Source of the DNA: Isoetes taiwanensis
Lineage: Eukaryota > Streptophyta > Lycopodiopsida > Isoetales > Isoetaceae
DNA length: 64,000 nt
Assembly (NCBI GenBank): GCA_021234155.1
Contig: JAJEKV010000484.1
Span: forward strand, 62,001 to 126,000
Direction: 5' to 3'
Shown: one piece after another, positions 8,401 to 39,180 of the stretch
Layout of the letters: every line of letters begins with the position of its first letter
Position numbering within the stretch: the stretch's first letter is position 1
Notes under the pieces: model-generated
What the model saw: the letters and a program-made list of their open reading frames with translations, nothing else
The model's database searches: none
What the model was told of the DNA's origin: nothing
Made by a program: the position numbers and the translations under genes

Positions 8401-9156
8401 TTAGGGAAATCATGTAAGAGTTTTCAGCTTCTTGCTGCCTTTCAAGCTGCAGGTATATCTTTGCATGTTAGCAAAGACTAACCTTCATGTTAGGAAATAA
8501 CCTTTCTATCTAGATTGCTAAATATCATGCATCAGGGTCCTTTCTTCCTTCTCTTCTTCAATATGTTTTCTAGGTCTATGATCGATTTTTTGATGCCCAT
8601 TCCTTACGCCCGCCATGCGTGCTACATATTTCACTCTTTGGCTGTGACCTTTATTCAGTAGAGTCACCAATCCAATTACTCCTTTATGTATTCATTAACC
8701 GTCTTGTGGCTTTTAACCCGCCATTATATGCTCCCTATATTGTTAACCCACCTATCATTGTCCTACATCCTCGAAATGTTAGTCATTACATTCCTCTGTC
8801 ATGATGTTATGCTGTTGTTTTGGCATTCCAAATGACTTGGCATCTTTATTTAAGCCATAGTCATGGCCTAAGAGCGGGTGAGCCTTCGTAAATTACCTGG
8901 AGTCATCAAGGTGCTTGCCTTGTATTTTGTGAGCCTTTCTACATTTACCTACGTTTAATATAACCCGGGCTTGTATCAATGTTCGAGTCCTGTATATGTT
9001 ACCTTGCACCCCCATGTAACCCATGGCGTCACCTCTGCCTGATCCAGGTATGGATCATGTGGAAAAGCTAGTCTTAGATATCTATGCAAGACACATTCGA
9101 ACAATTCCAAATTTTTTTCCTCCAGACCAGAAAACCCAAATTTAAACAATAGAAGA

Positions 9157-11050: not shown

Positions 11051-11059
11051 TACATTGCC

Positions 11060-12372: not shown

Positions 12373-12374
12373 CA

Positions 12375-13195
12375 AGAGAGGAATTTTGTATTAATGATAT
12401 GCACATAGTTTTCTGCATCGTCAATAATTTGAGAGCGTGTTTTAAAACTATACCTAGATAGCTTAATCCTAATGTAAACCGACACTACTACTACTATCAG
12501 ATAAAGCTACTTCATAAGAGGACATAGTTATGAATGAAACTCATGAAGTAGCATAAGAAATCGATAGGGAAATCCATAAGATTTTATACAACCTTATCTA
12601 GAATATAATGTTGTGTATTTCCACGTTTGTGTCATTCTAGATGTTGACATAATACAACTTTATCTAAATTTCATTGTCAATAAAACAACAAAAAAGATAA
12701 ATGTGTGGGTGGTGTATTTCCGAATTTCCCTATATACTTGGTTGTCATTGTCGAGTCAATCCTAATTAGAAAACTAATGCTGGACTCTTAGCAAATCTTC
12801 GAGGATTCATGGATTGGATTCTCAGCAAATCTTCGAGGATTTGTCCAGTAGATCAATCATCGGTCATTCAAACAAAACCCTACATAATACAACTTTCTAA
12901 GTCGGAATATGGTATTGTTTTACGAAATGTAAATGGTATTAGATTTCATTCTCTTGAATTGCTTTATTCAATCCTATGACTGACATATGATCATTGTATA
13001 AATATCTACGTACTATGCAAATGGCTTTAGTCTATGAATTATAACATGTTATATTGTCATCTATGTAGGTTTTACAGTTATGCCGATTATATAGTCTGTT
13101 CAAATGAAAAGTTAACAGAGGAACATAGCAAGTAAGCCATCTTATATTTTACGTCCTTAGACGATTGTATTGAGATATTATATGTGAATTAATAG
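12375..13195. other. Spacer between LINE-A and the Helitron helicase relic
   Basis: No gene was seen. A short direct repeat (TCTTAGCAAATCTTCGAGGATT / TCTCAGCAAATCTTCGAGGATT, 12786-12842) is present. A Helitron 5' end may lie here, but no candidate resembles the two mapped ones. Confidence 0.35.
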
Positions 13196-13198
13196 CGT

Positions 13199-16100: not shown

Positions 16101-17105
16101 CAATACTAGCTATGGAAGAAGCTGCATCATTGTCCTTAAGCCCCATACAATTGTGCTTTTTATTTGCGATGCTTTTGCTTGATCACGCACCAGCAATAGA
16201 GATATGGAACAAATTCCAAGTGCATATGAGCCTCGACTTGCTGGACCAATACTCAAACGATGAGACAAGCACATTCAATAAGTGTCTCCATCTAATCAAT
16301 AACATACTAACACAACATGCTACCAATATCATTGCCTTTGGCTTGCAATTGCAGCTTCGTCTTTCAAGGGACGTCATGAATGAACTAGCTAGATTTTCGA
16401 TCACGCGCATATATAAATACTACCATGCAAATGGCGAAAGCATAATGAATGCTAACCAATCGGATATATATCTCTATATACGGGAGCAACTAGAATTTCC
16501 ACAGAATGAAGGACCAATTGTTGTGGATGGAAAAGCGGGCACAGGTAAAACATTTGTGCTCAATTGCATATGCCTATTACTAAACATAGTACTCCCATGT
16601 GGCACAACAGGACTTTGTGCTCTATTATATCTAGGAGGTCGAACGGCGCACTCACTCTTCCAGATCCCCGTCACAGAAAACAACGCGGGCTTATACTCAT
16701 TATTGGAACGAGATTCTGGAGCTCGTAGAAGCAAACGCCATAATTTGGGATGAATCTCAATGGCCAATAAAGCTGTGATAGAGAGTGTGAACTATTCATA
16801 TTATGAAATGGCTTGATATGGAAAAAGGTCCCGTCAAGAATGTCAGAGTGATAGTTGAGTCAATGCATATGAAAGTTGTAATGGTGAGGGTATTGGATGC
16901 ATTGGATACATGCATATATCCAATTTCTAGAGCAGATTTCTTCTATCAACCAGAGAATCGACCATGGACTATCCACAGGCGCCAGCTGCCTCTTCGGCTG
17001 GCATACTCAACCACTTTCAACAGTTGTCAAGGAATGACGTTGGATCGCATCGTTCTTGACTTATGCACAAACACCTTCAAGACTATAATAACTCTTACGC
17101 CTTAA
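13199..17105 (+). pseudogene. Decayed Helitron Rep/helicase (RepHel)
   Basis: Pieces in Helitron order can be read across shifting frames. They are: a basic repeat-like N-terminus (PEEDRERIRERSRERNR, 13336-13386); a Rep stretch where the HUH motif reads LLHAHLVLG (15080-15106); VVPYNAFFLLHELDCHI (about 15333-15383); ARYLSAAEASWRTM (15627-15668); a helicase Walker A GKAGTGKT (16529-16552); and a C-terminal helicase motif NSCQGMTLDRIVLDL (17018-17063). In this family the HUH-endonuclease nicks and the Pif1-like helicase unwinds during rolling-circle transposition. There are dozens of stops and frameshifts. The most intact part is 213 codons (16112-16753). The ends of the parent element were not found. 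Confidence 0.85.
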
Positions 17106-17109
17106 TACG

Positions 17110-17560
17110 AAAAAGAAGATGCACTTATCCTCCTCAAATTTAAAAACACAATGAGACAAAACAAAAATGTGGTTTATAAAGAACTCCTTTCCTAATCATG
17201 TACGCCCATTTCACTCGAACTATCATCCTGGTTTAGTGCACATGTATAGAAACACAAGTCGAAAGTAACCTCTCAATTAATAAGGCACGCCTTTGCAATT
17301 CAAAAACACAAGCTCCAGTAGCCCTCGCTAATAAGGTACGCCTTTGCAATTCCAAAAGGGGGGAGATCGAATAAATGTTTTATTCTTTTTATTAACATGG
17401 CTCGTCTTTTCCATAGTATACTTATTTTCATAGGTGTAGTGCACTTGTGTAACAAAGGCACTACTCGGAGGTTCTCTCGCTAATAAGGTACGAAGTTATG
17501 AATGATTCTTCCCCTACACCCATGGATAAACGATTTGTTGCTTTGATACTATGATAATAG
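17110..17560. repeat. Short repeats downstream of the RepHel relic
   Basis: CTAATAAGGTACGCCTTTGCAATTC-type units recur at about 17278, 17329 and 17480, with CTC/CCTCGC before the later two. They may be the 3' non-coding part of the Helitron, but no hairpin plus CTAG end is visible. Confidence 0.45.
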
Positions 17561-17639
17561 AAAAAAAGTTGGGTGGGAGGGATTGAAGAGAACAAATATA
17601 TATTAAGAAATAACAAGATGTTGTATCATCACGGTGTTG

Positions 17640-17815
17640 GTCAGACTTTCGAATCAGGGTGTCCCCTTTCGAAGTTCACAATCCACTGACTACCACTGGA
17701 TGTTTAAAAATAAATAAATAAATTCATCGCGGTGATTGTTTAGTGGTCTGGCTATCGATTTGGGGTGTCCCCCATCGAGGCTCAAAATCCATTGACTACC
17801 GCCAGGTGCAATGAA
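17640..17815 (+). repeat. Pair of tRNA-like repeat units, possible SINE
   Basis: Two related ~60-bp units (17640-17700 and 17749-17808) are separated by an AAATAAATAAATAAATT stretch. The second, with its flank, begins GCGGTGATTGTTTAGTGGTC and ends ACCGCC. This gives a short acceptor-like pairing, an A-box-like TTTAGTGGTCTGG and a weak B-box-like GGCTCAAAATCC. The first unit has GTTCACAATCC at the B-box position. This is suggestive of a tRNA-derived sequence but not a functional tRNA. Confidence 0.35.
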
Positions 17816-17839
17816 TAGAGAGAGAGAGAGAGAGGGAGA

Positions 17840-21566
<3,727 letters not shown>

Positions 21567-21639
21567 AGTCTGGTGACTTGTTATCCATTTGTTGACCATT
21601 TTCTAAGAAAATATGATATGTGACATTCTTATATGCAAA

Positions 21640-21929
21640 CATTCATAAAATTTATGAATATTGAAGGTCAAAGCCATCCTTGTTTAAAGAGGATCATATG
21701 ATGCGAAATCTTCATGCGCAAAAATAATTGCATATAAGAAATTCGCATGGTGTGATCCTTGCATAAAAAAGTAAATAGAAACCCAAATATTGAACTTACA
21801 ACTTAGGATAAACAAATACTTTTTAAAACATATTTTAATGTTATTTTTGTATAATATAACGTTAAGATGAGATGGAACATAGCAAATCTGTATGGCGTGA
21901 CCTACTTTCTTGTTTGTTGTTAATTTAAA
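21640..21929. repeat. Left remnant of the ~190-bp tandem array, target of Helitron 2
   Basis: The segment contains the foldback GGATCATATGATGCGAA..TTCGCATGGTGTGATCC (21688-21756). It then has a second part ending GACCTACTTTCTTGTTTGTTGTTAATTTAAA just before 21930. The second part matches the middle of each unit at 36651-37440. Confidence 0.65.
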
Positions 21930-21957
21930 CTAGTTATGGTGCCCGGCGTTGCCGGGC

Positions 21958-24325
21958 TTTAGTAACAATTTGAAGAGGAGAAGAGGCAGTTGTTTCACCA
22001 TTGGCTAGAAAAGACATGTGACTTGGAGATGGTAAAGGTAATATATGTTAAGTCTTTATTTAATAAGGTTTGGTTGTTATTAAACGATCATTGATCATTG
22101 GATCTTGTAAAGCATTATATGATGACTCTATTATAAATTTGAATGTTTCCGTTTTGTATGATATCGACCTATTAATGGAAGTTGACTTAGAAGAGTAGAA
22201 TTAGAAGAGTAGAAACTAATACAGTGCAACAGTTTGCATCCTCGCAACATAGATTTTAAGACATGATGCAAAAACAGCTGTTACAATAGCAATTTGCAAA
22301 AGGGTGTCTTTACTACCTAAACACATGCAGTTGTCCCATTATGTCTTCTAGTCTTTGTGTGTCTTACAATTATGTTGTGAGACAAATAAAACCATAATGC
22401 GCAGCCATGTATCTATGGCAAGCGAAACCATAGGAGTAAATAATTATATATGAACGTTGATATGCTCAAAATGGTCTGTATTAACTAAGATATGTTATTA
22501 TCTCCCAAAATCTATCCTCATTCCGTGGTCATTTACACAGTATCATGGAAATAACAACCTGAACATTTACACAGTATCATAGAAATAACAACCTAAACAT
22601 GGTGAATTTAATAAACCATTCCATAGCTAGGTATTTCACTTTGGGTCTTTCATGAAAACATATACTTCTAGAAATGAATCGATGGTTGGCTCAAAAGTTC
22701 GGATTAGCACATCCCGAAGTTCGCCAAGATGCAACACATTTAGTTGAGCAAACAACACTCTTGACAGATGTCTATCATTCAAAAGGCTGCAAGCAACTCA
22801 TCAAACAAAAAGCCATTGAATATTCGGGCCAAAATTTTCATCCTGTCACCTTCCGGTGAATTGAGTAGGATTTGGCTTGCCCTCATTGTCCCTTGATTGC
22901 ATGGAATTACTTCCTGTTTCTCAATAATGCAGGAATATGTACAAATATTTCTGGGAACTCGATTCTTTAATAATTTCACTTAACACGCACCTCAACTTCC
23001 TTTTTAGTTGAGTCAGTATGAAGAGCATTTTCATTCTTCACTATGCTCAAGATGGGAAGGCAAGTTCATACCTTATTTGAACTTCTTCTACGTAAAAGAC
23101 TAATAGCTACGTAATAACGCAACAAGCACCTGTTGAACTGCTGGAACATAATGATCTCTCTATATTGAGATAACGATTCCACATTTTGTACAGATTTTGA
23201 TGGGAGTCAGACTGCAAACCGCAAGGTGCAAAGCCGGACACAAGGGGGCAGAGCTGCAGTCGTGACATTTAAACTTTCAAATCATCGAATATAAGCGGCA
23301 AGCACCAATTTCTAATATCAAAGTGTAATATTAATACCATTAACACTCAAATAGAGAGGAAATAATTCTGCACAAATATACACAATGATGAAATGCTATT
23401 TTTGGGTTGCCCCTAGAGGGGCAAACCCTTGTTTATGTGGGCTTTTGGCATATCCTAGGTATATGCTAGAATATCCCTAGAATATGCTAGTGACTGCTCC
23501 AAACTTATGATTGACTGTAAACTCTCGGTCACTTACACAGGTGGGCCCGCTCTAAAAAACGGGCTAACCGGAGAGGTCTCTTGGGCAGATGGCAAGTATT
23601 TTGAGTGTCTTGCGGGTTAACGTGCTTGTGTGATCGCCATATATACATTTTAATACACATTTTGAAGCATAAAAAAGAGATCGAATGGAGGCTCGAAGTT
23701 GTTAGGGAGATTCTCTTTGTGTAGACCGGAGAAACGCCGAGGTGGCCGTTGGGTTTAGCGAGAAGTATCCATCCCCGTAATGTGCTTTTTCTTTTTTTAT
23801 GGTATGTGAAGTATGATCCTTTCATTATTATGTTTCTGCTGAAAGCATAGATGGAAATATGCAATATGATCAAGTTCTCAAGCATGAGCTAGTAAAATGT
23901 CCGAGGAATCCAACTAAGATTGCCGATCCGGCGAAAACCCAAACACGTTAAGATCAAAATGGTCGTTTTCCCCTTATATGCCAAAGGTTTTAACCGGCCT
24001 TTTGTTAGCTTAATTCGCTAACGTTGTTTCCACCATTTTTTTTCGCTCAAGGAAATTCTTATAATCGCCATATATTTCTTTGTATTGATCTCTTTTGCTA
24101 TTACTTCGTGTTCCGTGTACTTTTGATGTTATATTCAATATCCTCCCTGTGTTCTGGTTTAGAATCGGGGATAGGTTCACATCATGTATGTTTTATACTC
24201 AATACATATTATTTGAATAATACAAAGACTAATTTGAAGTATAATATGTCAAAAATAAGGCAAAAAAATTCAAGGCCGGAAATTTTTTCGGTAAGCTGAA
24301 CCTTCAGTTTAAACATTTAAACCTA
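21958..24325. other. Helitron 2 interior with no recognised gene
   Basis: This holds only short repeats: a 37-bp tandem (CATTTACACAGTATCAT-GAAATAACAACCT, 22530-22600) and a short palindromic block at 23405-23440 (GCCCCTAGAGGGGC). The 118-codon minus frame at 23529-23885 has no motifs that I recognise. Confidence 0.4.
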
Positions 24326-24329
24326 AAAA

Positions 24330-26715
24330 AAAAAAAAAACCAGCCAAACCTAGAATCCCTAGGGTCCGACATCAACCCCTGGTCAATCCCACGGGTTGTA
24401 TTATCAATCCAGACTCCATTTTCATGTAAGTCATTGGTACTTAACATCCCTTAGCCTTTGATCTTTGTATCATTATACAATTTTAAATAATCCATAAGCC
24501 TTTAATTTTCTTTACCAAGTTGTTGGCGCTAGTTGTCCCCGCTAGTTGTCCCCATGACCAGGTCAGGCAAGAAGTCGTCTCCAGAGAAGGCCGAATATGA
24601 AGGGGATTCGGCATCGATGCTAGCCATGCTATCAGAGATGAAATCAGGAATTAATGAGTTGCGTGAGATGCTCGGAGAAGTAGTTTGTCAAAACAAATTC
24701 TTGACACAACAGAATTTGGAATTGAAGGAGGCATTATCCATGAAATCTGAAACTAGGGTTCCTGATATGGCTCAGATCACAAATGCAGTTGCAATACAGC
24801 TAGTGAAGCATAAATGGTGACACAAGAAATCAGAGCACAAAATCTCAAAATCCCAGGATTGGCAGAGGAGGAGAATGAAGATGTAAATCTAACAGTTGAC
24901 CACTTCTTCAAGGAAACTATGAGGCTTCATGAACCTCAAGTAATTCACTTCAGAAGACTCGGTAAACCAGGAAACTATACTCGGCCAATTTTGATAAAAT
25001 TTAAGAGTGTTGATGCACGCAATAGGGTACTTATAAGCCAGTTCTTAAAGGGCAGAAGATTTGGCTGGATGCTGATCTCACTCCAGCCCAATTAGAAGCC
25101 CGTAAAAAAGAATGGGCAAAAGTGAAAGTAGGAAGGGAGGAAGGTTTCGTAGCATATCTAGACAGAACTGGCAAAGCTGTGGTCACTTCTCGAAAGAGAA
25201 ATGACTAGGAAATCCGGACTCTAAGGGTATTGGCTTGGAATATACATTGTTTGTCTCAGGCCAAGGTGCATGCGTGTGAGCATATCTGGAAGATGGCAGA
25301 TGTTTTATTGCTCTCAGAGACATGGGAACATCAAATGCGGGGCTTATCACAAATTGAGAAGTTCATTGTATTAGGATCAGTCTGGAATACCAAGGAATTT
25401 GGTGTGGGGCGTGGACATGGGGGGCTGGCAGTCTATATCCGAAGTGACCTGGTATGCATTGCCAAGATCATCAAAACGCATATGCATAATCAGTATATAT
25501 GGATCGAGCTGATTCTTGGTAGAAAAAAAATCTATTTAGCCAGCAGTTACTTTGCTCCATTGAATATGAAGTTGTATCAGAGCAGGGACATGGATAAGGA
25601 TAACCCTTTTCATAGTTTGATCATGGATGCCATGGAATTCAGCAGATTAGGAGAAGTCTTGTTGGTTGGAGATTTCAATGCCAGAACAAACGGCCTCCAG
25701 GCAATTTCGTATGAGAACCCAGGAGATAGCTTATTGAAGGAATGCACTGAGCATGATTATGTTAGATTCCCCCCTTGATAAGGTGAAGAACAGCATGGGA
25801 GACTACTTGGTGGAGTCTATTACCGTGAGCAGTTTAAGAATTTTGAATGGAATCCCTCAATTTGCAAAGACAGACGGATTTACCTGTTTCACTCCCCACC
25901 CCGTACCAAAGATTTATAGATTACTTATTGGCCGACAAGCAACACTCGTGGAAAGAATTTATGATCTTAGAGAAGGAGGTGGAATCGGACCATGCAGGTT
26001 TATGGTTTAAGCTAAGTGGACAAGTGCGTAGGCAGCCCATTGTGGGAGCTTTTAAACCTAGAATCAAGCTGGATTTTAGGCATAAAGATCAATATCAGAA
26101 GCATTTGAGTAGCATGCTGGAGCGCTTGCAATGGGTGGGCGATGTTGATACAGAATCTCAGAACTTAACCAACATAATGTTGGAAGCAGCTAAATTGGGA
26201 TTTGGCGTCACTAGAAAAAGATCAGGCACATGACGATGCACAACAAATTTGGGTGGGATGATGATTGCAAGAAGGCAAGGGCAGAGCTGCCAAAAAAATG
26301 CAGGTTAAAGCCAAAATGGTACAAGAGACTTATTAAGGAGAAGAAGAGACGCTTTCATGCAAAAAGACAGTCTGATCTTAGCAACATGCTCTACGCAAAT
26401 CCTAAAATGTTCTGGAAGAACCTGCAAGGCAAATCGGCTGCACCAGATTTAGGGGTAGAAGATCTTCTCTCTCTGGTAAAGGAGATATATTTCATTGCAG
26501 ATGCTGGTGAGATGCCCGTTCTAAGCATTACTGAAGATATTTTTGATGTAGATGAAGTGGAGTCCCAGCTGCAACGCATGAAAAATGGGAAAGCCTCTGA
26601 CTTAATGGGTCTATCGACCGAACTAATGAAATGGGCAGATGGGAAACTAACCCATAAGCTAACAGAGCTTATAAACATGGCTGTCCGGCATGGATTACCT
26701 ACAATTACTTCCCCT
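24330..26715 (+). mobile_element. LINE-C, 3'-truncated non-LTR retrotransposon inside Helitron 2
   Basis: ORF1 (24533-25208, with frameshifts) begins with a heptad-like coiled-coil segment (MLAMLSEMKSGINELREML). An RNA-binding-like part follows with HFRRLGKPG, RPILIKFKS and LDADLTPAQLEARKKEW, typical of L1-type ORF1p. ORF2 begins at 25230 with an endonuclease carrying WNIH, SETWE, HGGLAVY and GDFNAR, and its SDH motif at about 25986. The linker (26230-26500) and the very start of the reverse transcriptase (RMKNGKASDLMGLSTELMKW) follow. The copy then stops near 26715, so the catalytic RT core is absent. It is dead. It is the same general type as LINE-B but diverged. Confidence 0.85.
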
Positions 26716-26814
26716 ACCCCTAGTAAGTGTTTAGAGTGAAGTTGTTTCATGCTTATATATCAGTTTATTAAACGATTCTAAGAGTGGTCAATTATGCAGC
26801 TTTGTTTCAGTTAT

Positions 26815-27066
26815 CCATTTAGTTGTTGGGGTAGCTTATTGCCTTGCCAGCTGGTCAATTGGAGTGCCTAAACGCGCGGTACATTGTTTTTGTTGAATGC
26901 TATTATTGTTGAACAGTTTGTTGAATGTGGCCTTCATGTGTACAGCCAATAGATGGAGAGCTTTTGTGGCTGCTGACACCAGTCTCTGTCTGTCATGCCT
27001 TGGGCCATGTTATGACAAATGTATCATTTGCTGCAGTTGCAGTGTCTTTTACACATGCAATAAAAG
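26815..27066 (+). pseudogene. Triose-phosphate/phosphate translocator fragment
   Basis: Two conserved blocks of the plant triose-phosphate translocator/drug-metabolite transporter family are readable. [14 protein letters not shown] is at about 26836-26879. [17 protein letters not shown], then [17 protein letters not shown], is at 26960-27066. About 60 bp between them is shifted and broken. The second block ends at AAAAG|GTATTC, a plausible exon end. Intact members exchange triose phosphate or PEP for phosphate across membranes; here the substrate-site transmembrane helices on both sides are missing. It sits just after LINE-C and just before the receptor kinase, in the same direction. Confidence 0.8.
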
Positions 27067-27160
27067 GTATTCAAATGATACAAGTAATATTTTATATCTA
27101 ATGCACGTCTTCTTGGTGTCTAACTTTGAGTCCTTTTCTCGTCCTTTGTAATTTGATGAT

Positions 27161-29051
27161 ATGGGTTGTAAGTCTAATTCGATGGGGCATATGCTGCAGC
27201 TCCTCATGTTGCCTGTCATTTCTCAACAGCAAAACTTTTCTCTTCTTCTTGATTCTGGTCATTCCAATCCCGTTCTCAAATTTCGTGGAGATGCAAGTCA
27301 AGATCTTGATCATGTGGAACTCACATCAATAAATGAGACATTCAGTGCTGGCTGCTTGTATTACACAAAGGCAGTCCACCTTCGTGAGCCCTGCAATCCC
27401 AATAAGCTTCTTTCATTTAGCACTTCCTTTACCTTCCAAATTGCCATACTTGTTGGCGCTTACCAACCAGGAGATGGAATGGCATTCTGCATAACATATG
27501 GAATGCCAGAAACCCCCATTTATGGCGCTGGTGGTGGCTTATGAATGGTTAATCAGTTTGCAGATAAAGACACCATGTGGTTATTTGCAGTAGAATTTGA
27601 TACTACACCAAATCCCGAATTCAATGATCCTAACAAACCCCATGTTGGTATAGACATTAATAGTTTACAATCAGAAGCTTTCGTTGTTGCCCCAAATAAT
27701 CTAGCATTGGATATGAATTATACCCTTCATCGCATGGGTAGATTACATATCTGCAACTCAAGAAATTCAAGTCGATTATCGAGGACCACAACAAAACCAA
27801 AACCGCTTTTACTTACCTCATGTTGTCGGCGAACTTAAATGATGTGATTCAAGATACCATGTATTTGGGGTTTTTGCTGCAACAGGAGCTTATACAAATT
27901 GCACAAGATATATTCATGGAATTTCAAAGGTGTCGCATTCGCCCTCGCCTAATTGTTCTGAGATCAGACTGTAACTAATAGTTCTCATAGATTCAGCCTA
28001 TTATAGACAAGCGAGTACATTAAGTGTGCCTATGCTGGTAGTATTGATTACACTATCTCTGTATACATGCATTTCTTTGTTTGCAGCAAGTTGGCTATGG
28101 TGCAAACAAAAGAAAAGAGACGCCAAGCATGTTCTGCAATCTCCTATCACTACCTTCACATACAGCCAACTGAGAGCAGCTACAAAAAACTTTAGTCCTC
28201 ATAACCTACTCGGAAAGGGTGGATTTGGATCTGTCTATAAAGGGGATTTGGCAAATGGTACTGTGGTAGCTGTTAAAGTCTTATCTCAAAATACTGGTGA
28301 AAATGAGTTGCAGTTTGTTGTAGAGCTTTCTGTAATAAGTCATTTTAGGGACAAGAACCTTCTGAGCCTTAGAGGATGGTGCCATGAGAAGGGAAAATTG
28401 CTGCTGATTTATGATTATATGCAAAATGGCAGCTTGGAGAAGCACCTCTTCAATTCTTCCTATGTTCTTTCGTGGCGACAGAGATATAACATAATACTAG
28501 GGGTAGCAGAAGGCCTTTCTTTTCTTCACCATGGATGGGAACAAAAGGTTGTGCATAGAGACATCAAGGCTTCCAATGTTCTTCTAGATAGTAATTTTGT
28601 GCCTCATGTAGGTGATTTTGGGTTTGCCAAGTTGTTGGATTCTGACAAAACAGAGGTGGAAATGACCAGGATAGGCACCTTAGGTTACATTGCTCCTGAA
28701 CTGATTAAGCTGGGCAAGGCGAGTGAAAAATATGATGTCTATAGCTTTGGAGTATTGCTATTTGAAGTAGCAACTGGGAAAAAAGTGGCTGATGTGAACC
28801 TAGGGGTACACTTAGTTCAGTGGGTATGGTCAAAAAATGAAGAGCACCAGATATTGGACGTTGCAGATCCCAATTTAGAAACTATGTTTGACAAAGTTCA
28901 ATTGACAACTGTTTTAGTGTTAGGATTGTTGTGCTGCCAAGAAGATCCCCATCAGAGACCAAGCAGGAGAAAATGTTGCAATATCCTTAAAGGAGATGAA
29001 GCTCTACCTTCTCTTGTCAATATGGCTGAAAGTGAGATTTCGTTGGCCTAG
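27161..29051 (+). pseudogene. L-type lectin receptor kinase with broken lectin domain and intact kinase frame
   Basis: The lectin part starts around FSLLLDSG (27236) and has GCLYYTKAV, LLSFSTSFTFQI, PGDGMAFCITYG and, after a stop, FAVEFDT and KPHVGIDINSL, the legume-lectin signatures. One in-frame TGA lies at 27542-27544. A frameshift near 27740 then throws out the strand reading EIQVDYRGPQQNQNRFYL. From 28026 a 341-codon frame encodes a membrane segment (MLVVLITLSLYTCISLFAASW) and a kinase domain. It has GKGGFGSVYKG, VAVKVL, HRDIKASNVLL, DFG and IAPEL in order, so all catalytic elements are present. Family members sense extracellular ligands at the plasma membrane. The signal peptide is not convincing. 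As a full receptor it is broken. Confidence 0.88.
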
Positions 29052-29700
29052 CACTAGCACAACCTTTAACTCCTCCCAGGCCGCTCTTGCATCTTCATCT
29101 TTATGCATCTCATCAGCAAGGTAAGGATCTCCATGTAAATCCTTGTCGATCACGACAGCCTTATTATATGCAATCTTTAATTGAATATGCCAAGTCATTT
29201 TCTTGGTCTTAGAATTTTGACACCACTTAAAAACTTCTTTTAACCATGCTTGAGTTTAAAATATTATTCTTGTTGCCTCGGTTTCGTAATTGTTTTAAAT
29301 TGCAATTCTCATAAGAATTCAGCTTGCACATTGATACAACTTGTTCTTGATATAAAGCTTTAGTTTGTGCAAACAAAGTTTTTTCTTATGTTGTAGAAGA
29401 CATGCCTCATGATTATACATATTCTCCCCTTTAGTCATAGCAAGTCCAGAATCCATTGCGAACATTGGGTCTTTGGGCGAAGATTCCATTTGGTATTTTG
29501 TGGCTTAGGTCTTTCCAAAGTTCTCCACAAATTGATTATCTCGGATTCACGATTGGTAAAATTGTACATTATAACAGGCACGTCAGCTCATTTGTGCTCC
29601 TTATTTTTTGGCTGCTGGCTGGCCTTCAAACAACAATTTCGACTGCAAATGTGGTTAATAAAGTCTACAACTTTCTCATTCAAATTGTTGCTTTTGTTCC
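29052..29700. other. No recognised gene in this part of Helitron 2
   Basis: A minus frame at 29004-29198 (64 codons) has charged, coding-like texture, DEMHKDEDARAAWEELK, but I cannot name a family. The other frames look random. Confidence 0.35.
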
Positions 29701-29714
29701 ATTTGCATATGTGT

Positions 29715-30135
29715 AAAGTATCTCAAAGCTTCCATACCAGATACCATTGTCAGGATACCCTGAGACAAGTGCATTTCATGACTCAACAATCCTAAATTCC
29801 TGCTTATTAAAAACTTCATGTGCCTCTGACAGCAAGCCAAATTTGGCATAAAGGTCAATCAATGTGGTGCCCACAAACCAGTCTTTATCCAAACCCTTCT
29901 GCACCTTTCTATGTATCTCTTGGCCCTTGTCAATAGCCCCTATGTTGCCATAGCACTTTTAAGCCACAAAAAAATGTGATAACATCTGGTCAGAACTTTC
30001 TTTCCACATCCATGTTCAACACAGCCTGCAATCATTTCATTCCATGAGACTACATTTCTGATTACGAGATGGTCAGAGACATTCTGTGCCTCTGTAACTG
30101 AATGAGACTTCGCATACATGCTGTCAAAATGTTAC
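29715..30135 (-). pseudogene. PPR protein fragment
   Basis: Across three shifting frames the minus strand reads SMYAKSHSVTEAQNV, NVVSWNEMIAGCVEHG, then IGAIDKGQEIHRKVQ and FVGTTLIDLYAKFGLLSEA. These are repeats of the plant PLS-type pentatricopeptide family, which acts in organellar RNA editing and processing. Only about three repeats remain, with stops and frameshifts, and no E or DYW domain is seen. Confidence 0.8.
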
Positions 30136-31230
30136 AACTCTAGAGAACCAATACAATCACACGAGCTTAGTCAATTTGTGTTAATAAAACCTACATAACA
30201 ATCACTACATGATAGAACAACACATACAACCATCTCAATGAATAGCACAAAAGAACGAAACAGAACCCATGAAACCACAACCTCGAGCCATCAAAGGGCA
30301 ACCCCTCGTGCGCAGCACCTTGTTCTTTTTGCATGGAAACAATGCCTCTCTCTTCTTTTTTCTCTCTTGTATGTGCCCTATCAACACCCTCCATCATAGC
30401 CGCACTTGCATTCCAAATATCCTGAATTTACTATTCCTTCACAGAGGTAATGTCACAAACCTGAGTTCGTAAGCAGGGTTGGGATGATGAGTTAAAATCT
30501 TCCACTGGTCTTTTCTTATTGTTTAAACATTTAAGTGTATTTGCCAAGGACTGGATGACCTCAACTATCCATCTGCTTTTGGTCCAAAACCTTTCCTGCT
30601 GGTCTGCTTAGACTTTAACTTTGCCTCTGCCCTGTCAATAGCCCTGGGAACCTAGTCAACCAAGATGGAACTCCAAATCAAGAAACGTTCAAAAAGTAAG
30701 TAGATGTTCTTTTGCATCAATATCCCTACACTTTGCTCAAGCCCTTGCAATTCTATGTAGATAGATCGTAAGCTTATTAGAGAAGATACATGCAAATCGT
30801 TTTATATGAAGGATAATATATGTGCTTCCAGAATTTTTACCACGATAACACTGGAACACTTACCGAGCATGATCTATTGATGTACGACGTGAATCGGGAA
30901 AAGTAACTGTTTCAGAGTTTATAGTTAACCTGAGAGTTATCTCAAAGTCTTCTAAGAAGCACCTATCTATAGATGAGCAAGCCAAAAATTGGATGCATTA
31001 TTTTGATAGTGATATTCAGGATGGACACATTACATACAACAAAGGAGTTTGTTAAAGGCATGTGAAGGTTCATGAAAATATTTACTGCCAAGGCAAAAAA
31101 ACATTCGTTTGATGGGCATATTAACAGTTTCCTTAGATGAGTTATCACAAGTTTATGCATTTTCTTTTCTTTCCCAAAGATGAAAATAAGAACTTAAAAT
31201 GGAGAATAAGGTACTTGCTTAAATCATTTT
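30136..31230. other. No recognised gene
   Basis: Nothing nameable was seen between the PPR fragment and the exchanger exons. It could contain introns or upstream exons of the exchanger that have decayed past recognition. Confidence 0.35.
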
Positions 31231-31234
31231 GCAG

Positions 31235-31880
31235 AAAGCAGAACAAGGTCTAAGAGAAGGCTAAATGGAGGAGGGCACGAAGAGGAGGAAGATGAAGAGG
31301 AAGAGGAAGAGGAAGAGGAAGACGGATCAGAAAAGGCACCTTATAGACAAATGGTTATACTAAAGGCATTTATGCTCATCTTATGTGGAGCTATAATCGT
31401 TGGACTGTTCTCAGATCCTTTAGTGGAAACTACCAACTTTTCAACTGCAAGCAAGATTCCAACCTTCTTTGTAGCCTTTGTCGCAACTCCACTAACTACC
31501 AATTCTAGTAAACCAATATCCTCAATAATATTTGCAGCAAAGAAAAGGAAAAGGAACATATCAATGACATACTCTCAGGTTCTTAAACCTGAACTGAACA
31601 CTGCACATTGTTAGTGTTACTGATGTTCTAATGAGTGGTGTTTTACAGATATGTGGCAGAGTCGCAATGAACAACACTCTATGTTTTGGAATATTTCTAG
31701 AAGTGGTAGTGGCTAGGGGCTTGGTATATGGGACTCCTCATCTAAGGCCATAAGGTGACAAATATTTTCCTCTTTGAATAGGCCTTGTTGCCCTGGTCCT
31801 TTACCCTGTAGCCACCATCTTATTTTTCTTCTCTGATGGTCTGAAAAGAAAAATAACCTTATGGACAACCCAAATCATTT
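31235..31880 (+). pseudogene. NCL-type Na+/Ca2+ (cation/Ca2+) exchanger 3' exons
   Basis: A glutamate-rich stretch (EEEEDEEEEEEEEDG, 31278-31326) leads into the second exchanger half, with DPLVETTNFSTASKIP, FFVAFVATPLTTNSSKP and SSIIFAAKKRKRN (31410-31560). The exon ends at TYSQ|GTTCTT. A 71-bp intron closes at TTTTACAG (31649), and the next exon reads MNNTLCFGIFLEVVVARGLVYG. A further exon after TTTGAATAG (31783) gives LVALVLYPVATILFFF. The P-L-x-T-N-S-S motif is the ion-binding alpha repeat of this family, where the usual last residue is Glu; here it is Lys, a probable loss-of-function change. The N-terminal half and EF-hands are absent. Confidence 0.78.
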
Positions 31881-32159
31881 GAAAACATATGAGCTTTTAA
31901 GCCCACGGCTAATAATTGTGACTAATCAATACTTGAAATTGCAAACACAAACTTAAAAGATGTACAGACCTTTCAGAAATTGCATAGGGTGTATGGTCCC
32001 TGCTGAATGTTGAATGAAGGGTGAGGAAAGCTGGCAAATTACAGCTGACACTATGTATACTTAGATCCATGAGTTCATGAGCATCATCCATGTTATTAAT
32101 CACAGGCTGCACCAAATTTTCCAGGCATCAGAAACTCTAAAGTAAAATTTCGAGGCTAG

Positions 32160-32290
32160 AATATCTAGTATTATAACAGGGGTTTTTTTTGTGTTTTTGT
32201 ACTGTTCTCTCTAAGGTTTTCATATGATTTGGTGGTTGTATTCATCCAGGTGTACTAAATAGTATTTCTAGAGTGCACTCTTTTGTTAGC
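32160..32290. repeat. Dispersed repeat, copy 1
   Basis: The reverse complement of this segment matches 62345-62515. Shared blocks are AACAGGGGTTT, a TACTGTT block, ATGATTTGGTG, a GTGTACTAA block and TATTTCTAGAGTGC. It probably represents a small non-autonomous element that is present in both orientations. Confidence 0.6.
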
Positions 32291-32539
32291 CGTTGATTTT
32301 AGGAAAGGGGGGAAATCCTGTGGTGGAGGCCACTCTGTCCAGCTAGCCTTAGCTATGATAGAATAAAGGGCAAAGGGCAATTAGGTTGCCTGAGAAAGGG
32401 AAAGCCATAGCCAAAATCTTAGCGTAAGACCTTGTCTACAGCTTTTCCTTGGTGTTTTTCTTTTCGACTATCTACTCCGGTGTTCTTGTTGTCTTTTGTG
32501 CTGGATTTGTCCTCGTCTTCCTATTCCATCACGACCCAC

Positions 32540-33285
32540 ATCAAGCTTTTGCCCCATTATTCTGCGCCCATACCCCATTTTGCACTGTAGCTTCCCCTTG
32601 GCCAACAAGAGGTATCAGCTTTTGGGCTCTCCATTCCGTCATAAATGTTGGCTTTGATGCTCTCATGTCCGACGGTCTGGGAAAGCTCTGCATATCCTTC
32701 AAATTTTGCCACCAGATTTGCGATGGCACCAGCATTTGGCGGTTTCTTCATTCTTGGTTCACCACAGCCAGAGGTGAAGGGATCTGTGTTGTTCTTGACA
32801 TAAATTACAGCCCTAAGATTTGGTCTTTTTCGGACACTGAAGGATCTCAGATTTCAGAGCTTTATTGCTTAGAAATAACAAAGAGGTCTAAAATCCCAAG
32901 ACCAGGAGAGGTTCGGATAGATTCTAATTAGGTTGTTACACATTGTTTTAGCTTTCGGCGGATCGATTATGGATCTGAAACGACATGCTGTGGCTTAAAT
33001 TAGGGCAAGAAAGACCGAAAGCACATTCCAAGTTGTTTCTGCACATATATGGCACCATATTACCAAGGCAAGAGGATTGGCAGATGATGACATAACAAAA
33101 TTGATCTTTTCTTTAAGCTGTAGGAACAAGCTAGATGGATTGTCTGATTCGTATTTTGGAAAGGGGGCTCCGTCATAAATCGTTGCATAAGGGCCATTAC
33201 TTGCCCATGGGCTTCTGCAAGGGATTTTTAACAATTTAGAGCATGCTTTGAATAAGATTGATGCGTAAACTTCTTCAAAGGTTCT
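32540..33285 (+). pseudogene. BAHD acyltransferase fragment
   Basis: The catalytic HxxxD box reads HQICD (32710-32724), within FKFCHQICDGTSIWRFLHSW. Upstream is VNVGFDALMSDG. In a different frame (33010-33280) the later domain continues TFQVVSAHIWHHITKARGL, RNKLDGLSDSYFGKGAPS and then HGLLQGIFNNLEHAL. In active enzymes the His of HxxxD deprotonates the acceptor for acyl transfer from a CoA thioester in the cytosol. The C-terminal DFGWG structural motif is missing, and frameshifts separate the two halves. Confidence 0.8.
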
Positions 33286-33451
33286 TGTATTGTATCAAAA
33301 TGTGCAAAAGATAATGCGCAGTCGCCCCGCAGTTGTTCCATTATAAGTCCTCTCTGCTTTGCTCTAGCGTATGCTTTTGCCCTAATTACAAAACATTGGG
33401 CTTGTTTCGCATTGTGTGTTGCTGATGTACACTTGGACACTTGTTTGAGCA

Positions 33452-33560
33452 GGAATCATCCTCTGCCCAATACATAGTGCAGCAGTATATTGCAGCAACA
33501 GGAGGTCTTTGCAGTCAGGGATGCTGCACTCATTGCAGCTCAGGAACTCAAGGGTAATCT
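33452..33560 (+). pseudogene. Possible DUF620-family exon
   Basis: After an acceptor-like TTTGAGCAG (33453) the frame reads ESSSAQYIVQQYIAATGGL. The phrase resembles a conserved block that I recall from plant DUF620 proteins of unknown function. Only this block is recognisable, and the frame is lost soon after. Identification rests on memory of one short motif. Confidence 0.4.
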
Positions 33561-34340
33561 GATTCGTTTTCATTTTGGCGAAGGTATGGGCACTATCAGT
33601 TGGCTGAGTTTTATTGTGTTCTTGCATTGGTATCTAGTTGGGGCAAGCATGAGCGAGTTTTGTACAGTCCTATTACCCATGTTCACTGCCGCACTAAGTT
33701 TAGCTTGGGGAAGCATTTGATAATAAAAAAAAGTAACATGGGTTACAATACAAGTTCCAAAATGGATAAGAGAGCAAACGAGTATGACTGATTATGTCTA
33801 AATGGCAAATTTGTACAGAATGTTAGAACTGTGTTTAAAATGGTGGCTTCTACCTGCTCTCTCTCAGTTAGAGAATAACTATATTTATGTCAGGAAGAGA
33901 CTGAAGCATTTCTTGTGGGAAGTACAAGCTTATGTGCAAAGCCATTAAAGCCATGAAGATGCTTTGTTTTCCAAGCAGTATCCTTAGTACATATTGTCTT
34001 GGGTAACCAATTGTATCCAGTATATGGAATATGTAGCTTGAAGAAGGTAGGTATCAGTTATTGTGATTTGACTTCCCGGGTGGTTCATTTTATAGGCAAA
34101 AAATTTATAGAAACAGAAATTTCCATGATGGTCGTCTTGTCATTGTTAGCATGTTTCTAAATTCTTAGTTTTGTTGCTGCACTTGTTCTCTTCAAATCTT
34201 GATCTTGAACTAATGTTTTCTGTTCTTTTAATGTGTTACCATTTGTCTATTATCTATCATGGTATTATGTCACACTTAATATTAGGACTCCGAATATAAT
34301 GGCTTGTTTTTAGCTCTACTACCATTTTCTATTATGATTC

Positions 34341-34440
34341 ATATGCACTAAGGAATCTCCATGCGCAGATATTATGTGCACAATATTACATGCACTAAGG
34401 AATCTCCATGCACAGATATTACATGCACAATATTACATGC
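34341..34440. repeat. Tandem ~50-bp repeat
   Basis: CATGCACTAAGGAATCTCCATGC-CAGATATTA is followed by -TGCACAATATTA and occurs twice in a row. Confidence 0.8.
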
Positions 34441-34742
34441 AGAAGTGTTTCTAAAATTGTTACATGCATTTATCCATCATCCATCATTAGAGTATTAGGT
34501 AATCTCTATATCTACACCCCTATACCATCCTTAAGGCCCCGAAGGGGCCAAAAAAATTTTTAGTTTACACAAACCATTAACACACAACTACCATCAACAT
34601 TATTAACATAAACCATTGCATTTGACACATTACATGTATCAAGCCTGTGGTTCCATTATCTCCAGTGCAATTGCAAAACAATTGCAACAAATGTAAAAAG
34701 AAGATATACATGAAACAAACGTATGAAGAAGATATACCTTAC

Positions 34743-34891
34743 CAGTAGGACGAAGCAAATCTCTAAATAGGAGCGAACCGTCCATGAGAAAATCCAAACT
34801 GCATAGCACTGCGTCATAATGGACTGCCATCCATCTGTATACAGGATTTTTAAGGATTGACAAATGGTATGTAGCCATACTTGCTGCACTC
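34743..34891 (-). pseudogene. Unidentified exon-like segment
   Basis: This 149-nt segment is bounded on the minus strand by ACGGACAG| and |GTAAGG, which are good splice sites. Two of its frames are open; one reads LCSLDFLMDGSLLFRDLLRP. I do not recognise the protein. Given the neighbours, it may be another captured exon. Confidence 0.35.
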
Positions 34892-34899
34892 CTGTCCGT

Positions 34900-35840
34900 T
34901 GCTATACCACAATCAATAATTCAGTTCATATTCTTTCTCTGCACATCTAAGTGGCAAGTATTTACCTCAAAAAGGGCTGCTGCTTTGCTGCAAATATTTT
35001 AGAGCATCAAAACCATAGATATAAAAGCGCCCATTGTGTTAAGCATCACGATTTGCACATGGCATTGTAACATACCTTCAAACATCTGCGCTCTCCAGGA
35101 CTATTGCAGAGAGGCTTCCATAGGCATCCTTGTAAAATATTCTTCTATGCAAATATATTTGCATGGCCTAAAATATCAAATCTGAATATAAGAACTTCAA
35201 GGATCATGATTTGCTTCAAATCTAGTGCCATCGTATATGTAGAGGTGATGCAAACAATTAAATTCCATAATCTATGCAGCATAAGATAAAGCCTCTATTC
35301 ATCTATGGGCCAAATAAAAAACAATTACCTCAAGAAGAATAATGTCCATATTCCTTGTTTCTGAACTCATGATCATCATTGCAAATCCCAACGACAGAAA
35401 ATTACCATGAAACTTTGAGCATGACCTGTAGGTTTATTATGGCAAATTGATTCCTTAAAGATGCATAACAACCAAGAGACAAAGGAAAACATGCAAGGTA
35501 TGTGCGATTAGAAGTAAATATAACGTACGTAATAGAGAATAGCTGCTTCGGTTGAACGGGCTCAAAAAAGAAGCTGATACATATCATTAAAGAGCTCCTC
35601 AGATTCAGATAACTCTTAAAATAATAATTACTCTATTAGACTACATGCTTAAATGAGTAGTCAAGAAGACATAAAGAAAGCAAAAGCCCTCATGACTGAT
35701 ATCTTGCCTATGGAAGCTATAACGGCAACGCCCTTGGATTCCACCATCTGCCGCCATGAAGAACCCATGTTTCCAATCAATCTGCAACTAAAGTCAGATA
35801 AAAACAGACAAATGCTTCGACAAAGGATGAATTCTTTAAC
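34900..35840. other. No recognised gene
   Basis: This lies 3' of the NADPH oxidase exons on the minus strand and could hold decayed later exons. A segment at 35690-35780 after a TTGCAG acceptor is a candidate but matches only weakly. Confidence 0.3.
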
Positions 35841-35844
35841 TTAC

Positions 35845-36200
35845 ATCTGGAAGAAAATCTCCATTTGCGAATCGAAATCTTGGTTGATTATCTGCAGCCA
35901 TAGTTCGCGGAGTTCTTCTTTTGAAATGGTTTCCGTCTTTGGGCCCGATCTTTTCGAAATGAGAGCTTCAAAGAGGGCATCTGCAAATTCCGAAGTCTTG
36001 TCCATTCCTACATAATTTTCAAGCAGTATTGAACACAATTATACAGTTTAGCAGAGTCACCTATAAATCTAAGATCAAGACATACCAATACAATGGCCGA
36101 AATCCTTCCTAGAAATCTTGCCATTGACAGATAACTTATCAAAGCGTTGTTACGCAAATTCCAATGAAGCTTTTGGATCCTTTTTCCGGATTCAAACTAT
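35845..36200 (-). pseudogene. Respiratory burst oxidase (RBOH) fragment, EF-hand region
   Basis: Two exons are readable. Exon a (about 36200-36086) gives QRFDKLSVNGKISRKDFGHCIG but has a TAA just before QRF. A 78-bp intron (36085-36008, GTATGT..TAG) follows. Exon b (36007-35845) reads MDKTSEFADALFEALISKR, then ISKEELRELWLQIINQDFDS and IFFQM, and ends at a GTAAGT donor. The codons join exactly across the intron. These blocks precede and enter the EF-hand region of plant NADPH oxidases, which make superoxide at the plasma membrane under Ca2+ control. The catalytic ferric-reductase and NADPH domains are absent. Confidence 0.85.
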
Positions 36201-36483
36201 AAATCTCAAACCCTGAAGAGCTCCCGCCTTGGCTTGCCAATTTCTCTTAACATATCCTTGTAGATGCCATGGCAATACATGTCGGTCCCTCTGTATCTAT
36301 AGCATGCGCTCTCTGTCGGATAAGGATGGAAATAAGAAAAAAAAACCATAACGACGATTTTTGGAAAATCGGCAAGTTTTTCCGGCAGGTAGAAACCCAA
36401 AAATCATAGGAAATTGACTTCAAAAAAATTCCAAATTTTTTTTTGGCCAAACCGGAAAATCCCAAATTAACAAGATTGATTGA

Positions 36484-37440
36484 TATAAACACAAGTACCC
36501 ATTCAATAGCCCTCCCATTTGCATGTGAAGTTCTAAGCCTATTTCAAAAAGCAAACACCTTTTTAATAAACCAACACTTTACATACCAACACTTTACACT
36601 TTAAATAAGATATTTCTTTCTTTCCTTTTACTTGAAAGCTATTTTTTTTCAAGATGGATCACATCAAGCGAATAATACATATGCAAAAAAGGGGACACAC
36701 TAAATTCGCATAGTGTGATCCACTTTCTTATTTGTTGTCAAATTAAAATTAAACACAAGCACCCATTCTTATTTGCATCTAAAATGCTTTACCACTCTTA
36801 AGTACATAAGTATTAGCCCTTTTCAAAGAGCATATCCTTTTTTAAGAAGGATCACACCAAGTGAATAGTATATATGCAAAAAAAAAAATGGAACACACTA
36901 AATTCATATGATGTGATCCACTTTCTTATTTGTTGTTAAATTAAAATTAAATACAAGTACCCCTTCTTATTTAATGTTTTACCACCCCAAATACATAAAG
37001 TTATTAGCCATTTTCAAAGAGCATATCCTTTTTTAAGAAGGATCACATCAAGCAAGTAATACATATGTAAAAAAAATGGAACACAACCATTTTGCATGGT
37101 GTGATACGCTTTCTTGCTTGTTGTCAAATTAAACTTAAACACAAGTACCCCTTCCTTTTTGCATCTAAAATACTTTACCACCCCAAGTACATAAAGTTAT
37201 TAGCCCTTTTTAAAAAGCAAACACTTTATCAATAAACGAGCATGTCACATATCTACACTCTACTTCAAATAAGACACATATATATTTCTTTTATTAGAAG
37301 ATAATCAAAGTAATTTTACTATTGGAAGTCATCTTTTTCCAAAAAGATCACACCAAGCGAATTATGTACACGCTAAAAAGTTAGAATACACTAAATTCGC
37401 ATGGTGTGATCCACTTTCTTGTTTGTTGTCAATAGATAAT
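36484..37440. repeat. ~190-bp tandem array with an inverted repeat in every unit
   Basis: A half unit (36484-36650) and full units starting at about 36651, 36844, 37035 and 37341 (the unit before the last has an extra ~110 bp) share a constant order. The order is GGATCACA-CAAGCGAAT, a short spacer, ATTCGCATGGTGTGATCC, CTTTCTT-TTTGTTGT, then AAACACAAGTACCCCTTC. The first and third blocks form a ~17-bp foldback. A more diverged copy of the foldback occurs at 38100-38175. It encodes nothing. Confidence 0.8.
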
Positions 37441-37444
37441 AACA

Positions 37445-39180
37445 CCAAGTCCCTCATCAATAATCTCCCATTTGCATATAATATATGTAGCATTCCAAGT
37501 TATATTATGTTTTATGAACTAAACTTTTTCAAAGAGGGTCCCAAAATACAAATACTTAATCAATAAACCAACATTATACCAACAACCAAAGCTTTCTTAA
37601 ATAATATTTTTATGTTATTTTATCAAACCTAACAATGTTTCCATATGTGACACTTTGTTAACTGACCCAAAGGCTCATGAATGCAACATTTTACACATTA
37701 TGTCTTTGGAAATTTTATGTTGTGGCATTAGTAAACACCTCTAATGGAGCAAATATTTTGTACTCGTTTTTTCAACATCCCTGGCTGCACGTCTTATCAA
37801 ACATTTCTTCATTGCAAGGGCATCATTCTCATAACTTTGAGGCTTGCACAATTCGCTTAAAAGAGGTCATAGGATGACTTTCAAGCTCGGCTCCCACAAC
37901 TTTACAACGTAAAACTAGATGCCCATTGCCCTGAAGGTATATCTTGGAAAAGCATGTCCATATGTTAGACAACAACGATGATAGTAACGCTTTCCCATAG
38001 TCTCAAATCCTCGACATCTGATAAACATAGCCCAAAGAAAAATAATTGATTCATTAAATGAATATAAATCAAAAAGAGAGAGAGAAAAAAAAAACAAGCA
38101 TCACATGACGTGAAATCTCACTACACATTTACAAAGTGCATATGCATTTTCGCATGGTGCGATCCATATATTATTGAAGTTGCAAATTTGCAAATATCCT
38201 TCTCTTCAAATCACCCCCCTCCGCTTCCCTTTTTTTTTTTTGCAATATACTATCCATAGCATTTATTTTGAAGCCTATACTTCTACCTATTCATTGCATA
38301 TAAATGTCTTTTTGGCGATGTAACTCCATGGTCACCCTTAAGGATAGCATTCTCACCCACGAGCCTATGGATAGATATCCTTCCACTGTCATGCCGTCAT
38401 TGTTTTGTAAGTGATAAACTGCAAAAGCAATGTAGGATACTAGAAGCAATGATGGATGCAACCAGAGATACAGATTAGGCATTCGATCGTAAGAATGAAT
38501 GGCAGGGAGTAATACGATGAATGGGCAAAGCTGAAAAGTAGAAAAACTTCAGAATGAAACGTACGTTTGCTTGTCCACACATCGCCTCGCCATTGTCGCT
38601 TAACTCTATGCTCGCCCCTCATTGATGCTATAACATACTCACCCATGAACCTATGGAGACATAATCTCCCACTTCTTGACCTTGAGTGTTCTGTAAATCG
38701 GTTAAAAACACAGACACTATTGGATTCCAAATGAAGAGTGAAGGCGGAGAGGATGCACGTAGCGGCGCTAGAATGAACAAAAGAAATCTTGGCGCCAAAA
38801 TTTGGTAAGATGGTTGGTGCATGTGGGCATGTGCACAGTAGGCGGAAAAAGTAGCCATCATTTTAGTCCGCGATATGATTTTCGAAAAATGCGGGCCATC
38901 AATGAATGCACAAACATGTCCTATGAAATTCCGCCATGTGGATGCCAAGTAAGCCTGCTCCTTCCTCTACTTGCCAACTAATACTGACTTTGGTAAAAAA
39001 TGTGCAAACCTCATTGGTCGCGAGAAACATGACGTGGAATTCTAGCATCCAAGTTATGGGCCATTTTGAGATCCCAAATCCGCCCTAATGTATGTTGCCC
39101 TTTTGGACTCTTGTACACGTTCTTTTTGTAACTTTTACTAAATTCCTGGAGCCAAACTACCATTAACATATTGTTCAGAT
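37445..39180. other. No recognised gene; contains a diverged direct duplication
   Basis: Minus-strand copies at 38330-38420 and 38625-38700 encode LQNNDGMTVEGYLSIGSWV and LQNTQGQEVGDYVSIGSWV. The peptide similarity is better than the DNA similarity would suggest, but I cannot name a family. Confidence 0.35.

Follow-up and report, generated by a model that had tools for sequence, protein, structure and literature searches.

A composite of nested mobile elements was found in a 64,000-nucleotide stretch of the quillwort Isoetes taiwanensis genome (contig JAJEKV010000484.1, positions 62,001 to 126,000, forward strand; hereafter the window). Positions 21930-36483 are occupied by a Helitron, referred to here as H1, that encloses pieces of several host genes. 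The locus is very probably made up of three mobile elements, and its gene pieces appear to have been gathered by nesting as much as by capture. The outer element H1 is 14,554 bp long in total, or 7,633 bp once a second element nested in it, H2, is subtracted. The third component is a dispersed repeat referred to as the third block. The original prediction, made from the window's letters, had described a single multi-capture Helitron with fragments of at least seven unrelated host genes, and named seven. There is indeed a Helitron, with what looks like cargo of its own, a cation exchanger piece and an NADPH oxidase (RBOH) piece, but five of the seven pieces lie in the nested elements.

The outer element H1

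The features of H1 and its borders are:
21930..36483, minus strand: H1, the outer element, canonical Helitron1 type (both ends, 3' hairpin, pseudo-empty site, 13 further two-ended copies)
21930..21957, minus strand: H1 3' end, hairpin GCCCGGC-AAC-GCCGGGC, then ACCATAACTAG
36461..36483, minus strand: H1 5' end, TCAATCAATCTTGTTAATTTGGG
21870..21929, plus strand: left host flank, repeat family D2, akin by alignment to the right-hand tandem units
36484..37720, plus strand: right host flank, tandem units spaced about 190-300 bp, the source of the pseudo-empty site

The analysis confirmed that 21930-36483 is a canonical Helitron of the Helitron1 type with real and exact ends. The predicted terminal sequences (A|TC, hairpin, CTAG|T) are both present at these positions on the minus strand. 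Read on that strand, the element starts with A|TCAATCAATCTTG and finishes with a 7-bp hairpin, ACCATAA and CTAG|T. It thus has the 5' TC and 3' CTRR of Helitron1 elements (TCAATC...CTAG). The 3' hairpin has a folding energy of -9.6 kcal/mol (z -3.6) and its stem stops 11 nt short of the 3' end, where Helitron1 hairpins lie 10-12 nt before it. As in Helitron1 elements, insertion was between A and T without target duplication. An A adjoins CTAG at the 3' end in 11 of 11 flanked copies (9 sites), and a T follows the 5' end in all seven loci that could be parsed by script, one of the eight tried having remained unparsed. Joining the two flanks of H1 produces a sequence that four of the right-hand tandem units match across the junction, with 78-85% identity over 54-79 aligned bases, which indicates a clean insertion. 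A six-frame translation of H1 gave no Pfam match to a Rep or helicase domain; H1 is therefore non-autonomous.

Relatives were sought in the whole genome (1.658 Gb, 1110 contigs). The searches scored the best candidates alone, 40 for DNA queries and 150 for the family search, and all copy counts are lower bounds. A lack of other genomic copies of the ends had been named beforehand as evidence against the Helitron; each end has at least 40 scored matches. The proposed search for siblings by their ends recovered 13 further copies of 3.5 to 19.4 kb that carry both ends on one contig, paired by coordinates (C1082, C216, C951, C1042, C991, C918, C679, two on C1096, C1056, C1089, C1081 and C1060), and siblings differ from one another in content. 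The C1082 and C216 copies share their flanks with the window copy (C202) and occupy the same site. Sampling of siblings for reading was non-random: seven further copies were chosen by 3'-end score, then C216, C1042 and C1060. The copies read at other sites number eight (C991, C1096, C1042, C1060, C985, C951, C1039 and C679).

The same data bear on the possibility that the pieces are decayed neighboring genes caught between chance Helitron-like ends. As predicted, the pieces lie in both orientations: those of PPR and NADPH oxidase are on the minus strand and the remainder on the plus strand. Some also keep introns, for example RBOH when compared with C1032. Both features speak for decayed neighbors. 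However, that account has next to no chance of being correct: copies of the family occur at many places, the tandem units supply a pseudo-empty site, and the source gene of RBOH lies on a different contig. The fragments were collected, as had been proposed.

Two further observations concern H1 copies and their borders. The C216 copy (L032, L033) has a 4.8-kb insert between the window-equivalent positions 35258 and 35262, with a seeming 5-bp target duplication, perhaps a long terminal repeat (LTR) retrotransposon. Near the left end of H1 the window has 85 perfect AG units, at 21393-21562.

The nested element H2

The ends of H2, which include asymmetric terminal inverted repeats (ATIRs), are:
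23404..30324, plus strand: H2, the nested element, Helitron2 type by its ends, 6,921 bp, between TTATTTTT and C
23404..23428, plus strand: H2 5' hairpin, GGGTTGCCCC-TAGA-GGGGCAAACCC, containing the 5' ATIR GGGTTGCCC
30296..30324, plus strand: H2 3' end, with the ATIR GGGCAACCC (30296-30304), a small hairpin GTGC-GCA-GCAC and a terminal CTTGTT

H2 is a separate element with ends of the Helitron2 group and a member of a dispersed family, its putative class being read from the ends alone. Helitron2 elements have the 5' ATIR 0-2 bp from the end, inside a 5' hairpin, and GGGTTGCCC is so placed in H2. The hairpin consists of a 10-pair stem with one bulge and folds at -9.6 kcal/mol (z -3.0). The 3' ATIR, GGGCAACCC, is an exact inverted repeat of 9 bp located 20 bp from the end. 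H2 also inserted in the Helitron2 manner, with TTTT on one side, T or C on the other and no target duplication; C1082 provides the empty site, and the pre-insertion sequence is TTATTTTT|CTTTTTG.

Both ends recur in the genome. The right part of H2 has at least 40 scored matches, as has the left end, where all 40 begin at the first base. The ends read were 20 of the 40 scored left ends and 20 of 45 right-end rows, the right flanks being partly non-independent (L073/L074 and L077/L079 resemble each other). In all 20 left ends GGGTTGCCCC is exact, is followed by a near-palindrome and is preceded by at least five T. The right ends are conserved through CACCTTGTT in all 20, and the next base is T in 17, C in one and A in two. 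The inverted repeat GGGCAACCC(C) is exact in 16 of the 20, and the stem of the small hairpin is kept in 19. Left and right ends occur on the same contig, at most 15 kb apart, in seven further copies. Among the 20 left flanks, one is located within an H1 copy at C1018 (84.7% over 59 bases), a second case of H2 nested in H1.

A nested MULE (Mutator-like element), hAT element or long interspersed nuclear element (LINE) was considered for 23404-30324 because of a seeming duplication of TTATTTTT. It was rejected when TTGTT proved to be internal to the element in the 20 right ends. At another locus, L060 (G000:C1057:5432918-5433017), the first 30 bases of the H2 5' end are in tandem, and the first copy finishes with CCCTTGTT, which resembles the H2 3' end.

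The cargo of H2 consists of:
24146..26699, plus strand: LINE fragment (Exo_endo_phos, E 1.5e-6); endonuclease and beginning of the reverse transcriptase recognized by eye, 3' end absent
26925..27098, plus strand: triose-phosphate translocator (TPT) exon fragment (Pfam TPT, 1.1e-10)
27152..29048, plus strand: lectin receptor kinase fragment with broken frames (Lectin_legB 2.2e-27, kinase 3.7e-45)
29683..30131, minus strand: PPR protein fragment (Pfam PPR, 3.1e-5; 24.3 bits, just below the cut-off of 25)

Cargo varies among H2 siblings. The C68 copy has the TPT, lectin kinase and PPR pieces and lacks the LINE. The C1025 copy is 2.3 kb long and has the ends, the PPR part and about 1 kb that is absent from the window H2. 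Those on C1057 and C903 contain different stretches of about 3 kb, for which no Pfam match at 0.001 was found in six frames each. The PPR piece lies inside the 3' part of H2 that is common, whole or in part, to the four siblings read. The lectin receptor kinase fragment has additional close copies in the genome, with a candidate source at C1007:12299319-12300730 (77%). The LINE fragment, which like the ends of the nested elements had no part in the original prediction, is present in both same-site H2 copies; 12 other bases stand at that point in C68. The possibility of a simple LINE insertion at 24146-26699 was also considered and set aside: the fragment stops by eye inside the reverse transcriptase, and the 12 other bases of C68 come with no visible target duplication. 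A second LINE-like fragment of similar kind was seen by eye outside H1, at 19502-20475 on the minus strand, the tested part of which had no Pfam match.

Insertion of H2 at the H1 locus

H2 probably entered H1 in place, after the C1082 copy had split off. C1082, which lacks H2, has the same flanks as the window on both sides and is thus the same H1 insertion at a sister locus. The junction 23402|30325 is unbroken, and H2 absent, in C1082 and at four other sites (C991, C1096, C1042 and C1060); the remaining other-site copies read, C985, C951, C1039 and C679, have lost the position. C216, the other same-site copy, contains H2. Measured against the state of the siblings, C202 and C216 have 19 changed sites in common, compared to two for C202 and C1082 and one for C216 and C1082. 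Private differences number 83 in C216, 39 in C202 and 10 in C1082.

Alternatively, H2 may already have been in H1 when H1 landed, and C1082 may have lost it since, with gene conversion by an H1 sibling as one conceivable route. Small conversion tracts are possible, and the raw identity of C202 to C1082 exceeds that to C216 in five of five stretches, which places C202 nearer to C1082. The lower value for C216 is explained by the many private differences that it bears, whereas the shared changed sites join C202 with C216. Furthermore, all four other-site copies that keep the position are without H2, and a loss would need to have recreated the pre-insertion sequence without error. A later loss of H2 is thus unlikely, and in-place insertion is preferred. 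According to the account of the genome (PMC8566536), nanopore reads were used for the assembly and haplotigs were purged from it; the short contigs C202 and C216 would fit leftover alternative copies.

The third block

The third block and its gene pieces are:
32162..34631, plus strand: third block, a dispersed repeat with the left end TATCTAG(C/T)ATTATAACAGGGG, bearing the BAHD and DUF620-like pieces
32686..33162, plus strand: BAHD acyltransferase fragment (Pfam Transferase, 1.8e-7 and 2.7e-5), its limits taken from gene-like matches
33426..33560, plus strand: DUF620-like piece, by eye only

Judged by its copies, the third block is a third dispersed repeat, unclassified and shortened on the right here. 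The 1,011 bases searched are all found on C908 with 95% identity, and pieces occur on C1061, C1090 and other contigs (54 rows from the best 40 of 57 candidates). A candidate source of the BAHD piece is C917:2892608-2893088 (92%). The C908 copy has an identical left start in a different flank and extends on the right past the point where the window copy is cut. The block is present in all three same-site H1 copies and in none of the eight other-site copies read, three of which have lost the position. At that position C951, C1096, C1060 and C985 carry about 160 other bases, with an extra insert in C985.

Six of the seven predicted gene pieces were upheld, by Pfam matches, a weak one for PPR, or, for the cation exchanger, by likeness to a gene on C1035. 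The seventh, the DUF620-like piece, was not: three reading frames gave no Pfam match with E up to 1. One H1 copy on C1096 (L018) has a 2.2-kb insert at the window-equivalent positions 30423-30427, the left end of which resembles 32159-32302; it is perhaps a relative of the third block.

The two nested components decide against the scheme of the original prediction, in which a single Helitron took up all seven fragments stepwise over its own transpositions, as in maize. That scheme would account for the enclosure of everything by one outer end pair and for the existence of siblings of differing content, and the RBOH piece described below is such a capture. However, the 6.9-kb stretch of H2 has its own end family with copies outside H1 and is absent at the same site in C1082, and the BAHD block is found elsewhere with an identical left end. 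Contradicted for five of the seven pieces, uptake of all fragments by one Helitron is very unlikely, and a composite of three elements is the better reading.

Probable cargo of H1 itself

Two pieces lie in H1 outside H2 and the third block:
30645..31836, plus strand: EF-hand cation exchanger (NCL-like) fragment, cargo of the H1 family, 80-90% DNA likeness to a gene on C1035
35820..36224, minus strand: NADPH oxidase (RBOH) fragment, captured by H1 (NADPH_Ox, 8e-13), source gene on C1032

Only these two pieces look like the cargo of H1 itself, direct capture having been demonstrated for RBOH alone. The cation exchanger piece is weak in Pfam (0.018 at best), and the related stretch of C1035 matches EF-hand (2.5e-8) and Na_Ca_ex (3e-6). 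It is present in many H1 copies and is thus likely to be older cargo of the H1 family.

The RBOH piece was truly captured: it is genomic DNA taken up into the interior of H1. A genome search with its 405 bases (35820-36224), in which every candidate was scored, gave seven matches. Five of these lie, judged by position, in Helitron copies (C202, C1082, C216, C985 and C1103), a weak one is on C1054, and the last is on C1032. Two frames of the C1032 stretch have NADPH_Ox matches (4e-11 and 3e-12), and by eye the oxidase continues past both borders. The comparison with parent genes that had been suggested thus yielded a source for RBOH, with 93.7% identity to C1032 that ends within one base of 35820 and of 36224. 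A frame change inside the piece indicates a retained intron. The capture site is empty in C951, C1096, C991 and C679, and by coordinates in C1042 and C1060. The dinucleotide CG flanks the piece on both sides, and a single CG stands at the empty site. Read-through at an end would put cargo at the end of the element, so that an internal piece with CG on both sides is better explained by filler DNA at a repaired break. The evidence thus favors capture by break repair with filler DNA over end read-through.

Order of events

H1 would have moved by rolling circle, as its ends and families suggest, no transposase having been found inside it. The cation exchanger piece may have entered H1 first and the RBOH piece, which is in copies at three sites, later. 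The non-autonomous H1 with these two pieces would then have inserted at an A|T site in the minisatellite. The third block, with its BAHD and DUF620-like pieces, may have lodged in H1 before or after H1 landed here. Last, H2 with its TPT, lectin kinase, PPR and LINE pieces would have inserted at TTATTTTT|C inside H1, in the lineage of this locus. We infer the order of the steps and the manner of capture; the end pairs, empty sites, sibling families and RBOH source gene were observed directly.

Several points, together with the raw identities given above, weigh against this reconstruction. The order of events is drawn from contigs of differing quality, C202 and C216 being short with many private differences, and the flanks of C216 were read over about 230 and 170 bases. 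The 5' end of the C1096 copy of H1 is altered and its border is not clear. In H2, the base following two of 20 right ends is A rather than T or C, and the 4-bp 3' hairpin is no stronger than those of shuffled sequences (z -0.15). The ends of neither H1 nor H2 are tied to a transposase. The third block has a defined left end alone, by comparison with C908, its right side being shortened in the window.

Relation to known Helitrons

In maize, a published account describes stepwise capture of gene fragments by Helitrons and proposes nested Helitrons (Dong et al. 2011, PMC3288121). H1 resembles the maize elements in its CTAG end, in internal gene pieces that vary between siblings and in the proposed nesting. 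It differs in that most of its pieces came with nested elements of other kinds, and in that the nested Helitron has Helitron2 rather than Helitron1 ends.

The Helitron2 group is described as having ATIRs that measure 8-15 bp, hairpins at both ends, and insertion between TTTT and T or C with no duplication (PMC3627910, PMC5148889). Its members include Chlamydomonas elements and Helitron-5_SMo (PMC3627910). H2 agrees with the description of the group (Bao and Jurka 2013, PMC3627910): its 5' ATIR is terminal and part of a hairpin, its 3' ATIR precedes a 3' hairpin at 20 bp from the end, a distance inside the range given for the group, and its insertion follows the same rule. H2, classed by its ends alone, differs from these elements in being a vascular plant element with host gene pieces as cargo, and in its location within a Helitron1. 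SMo in Helitron-5_SMo stands for Selaginella moellendorffii; hence Helitron2 elements, known from algae, probably also occur in Selaginella.

The FoHeli elements of Fusarium oxysporum likewise have asymmetric terminal inverted repeats and hairpins, but they are fungal, and FoHeli1 and 2 favor a different target site (PMC5148889). The related Helentrons, in a 2014 account, were not identified in most plant genomes, with contamination possible for the few hits (PMC4067079). The main text of the Isoetes taiwanensis genome paper does not contain the word Helitron (PMC8566536). A shallow literature search, with most subscription papers outside it, found no announced gene-bearing Helitron2 of a land plant and none nested in a Helitron1. 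The kinds of element seen here are thus known, and the combination is new: the layering, together with a gene-bearing element of Helitron2 type in a land plant.

When an element holds many gene fragments, it is easy to score them as successive captures by one Helitron, and nesting that goes unchecked can inflate such counts; most fragments of this locus came as cargo of other mobile elements. The RBOH locus offers a clean case for the capture mechanism, with a source gene, sharp breakpoints, a kept intron and pre-capture siblings. More tentatively, and as a reading less likely than not, the Helitron2 elements of this genome may actively collect gene pieces, having a fixed 5' end of about 175-205 bp, a fixed 3' core and variable cargo. 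They may land repeatedly in the T-runs of Helitron1 elements, so that a single mobile unit pools the pieces gathered by different transposon systems. On this view a network of elements, and not any one Helitron, would do the collecting.

Machinery and surroundings

The window gave no hits in Rfam or tRNA scans. The left flank (7000-21699, 14.7 kb), translated in one of three frames per strand, gave no Pfam match at 0.001. At 16076-16750, outside H1, is a fragment of a PIF1-like helicase (Pfam 5e-13) that is Helitron-like by eye. A dispersed repeat of about 130-150 bp occurs in the window at about 960-1118, 7711-7858, 49897-50034 and 58296-58471, and also at other Helitron loci. The genome-wide search for Helitron_like_N domains scored the best 150 of 1,813 candidates, all above the cut-off. 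Rep domains are found in long open frames at G000:C224:469615 (2,964 amino acids) and G000:C1018:33465824 (1,979 amino acids), which are candidate autonomous elements.

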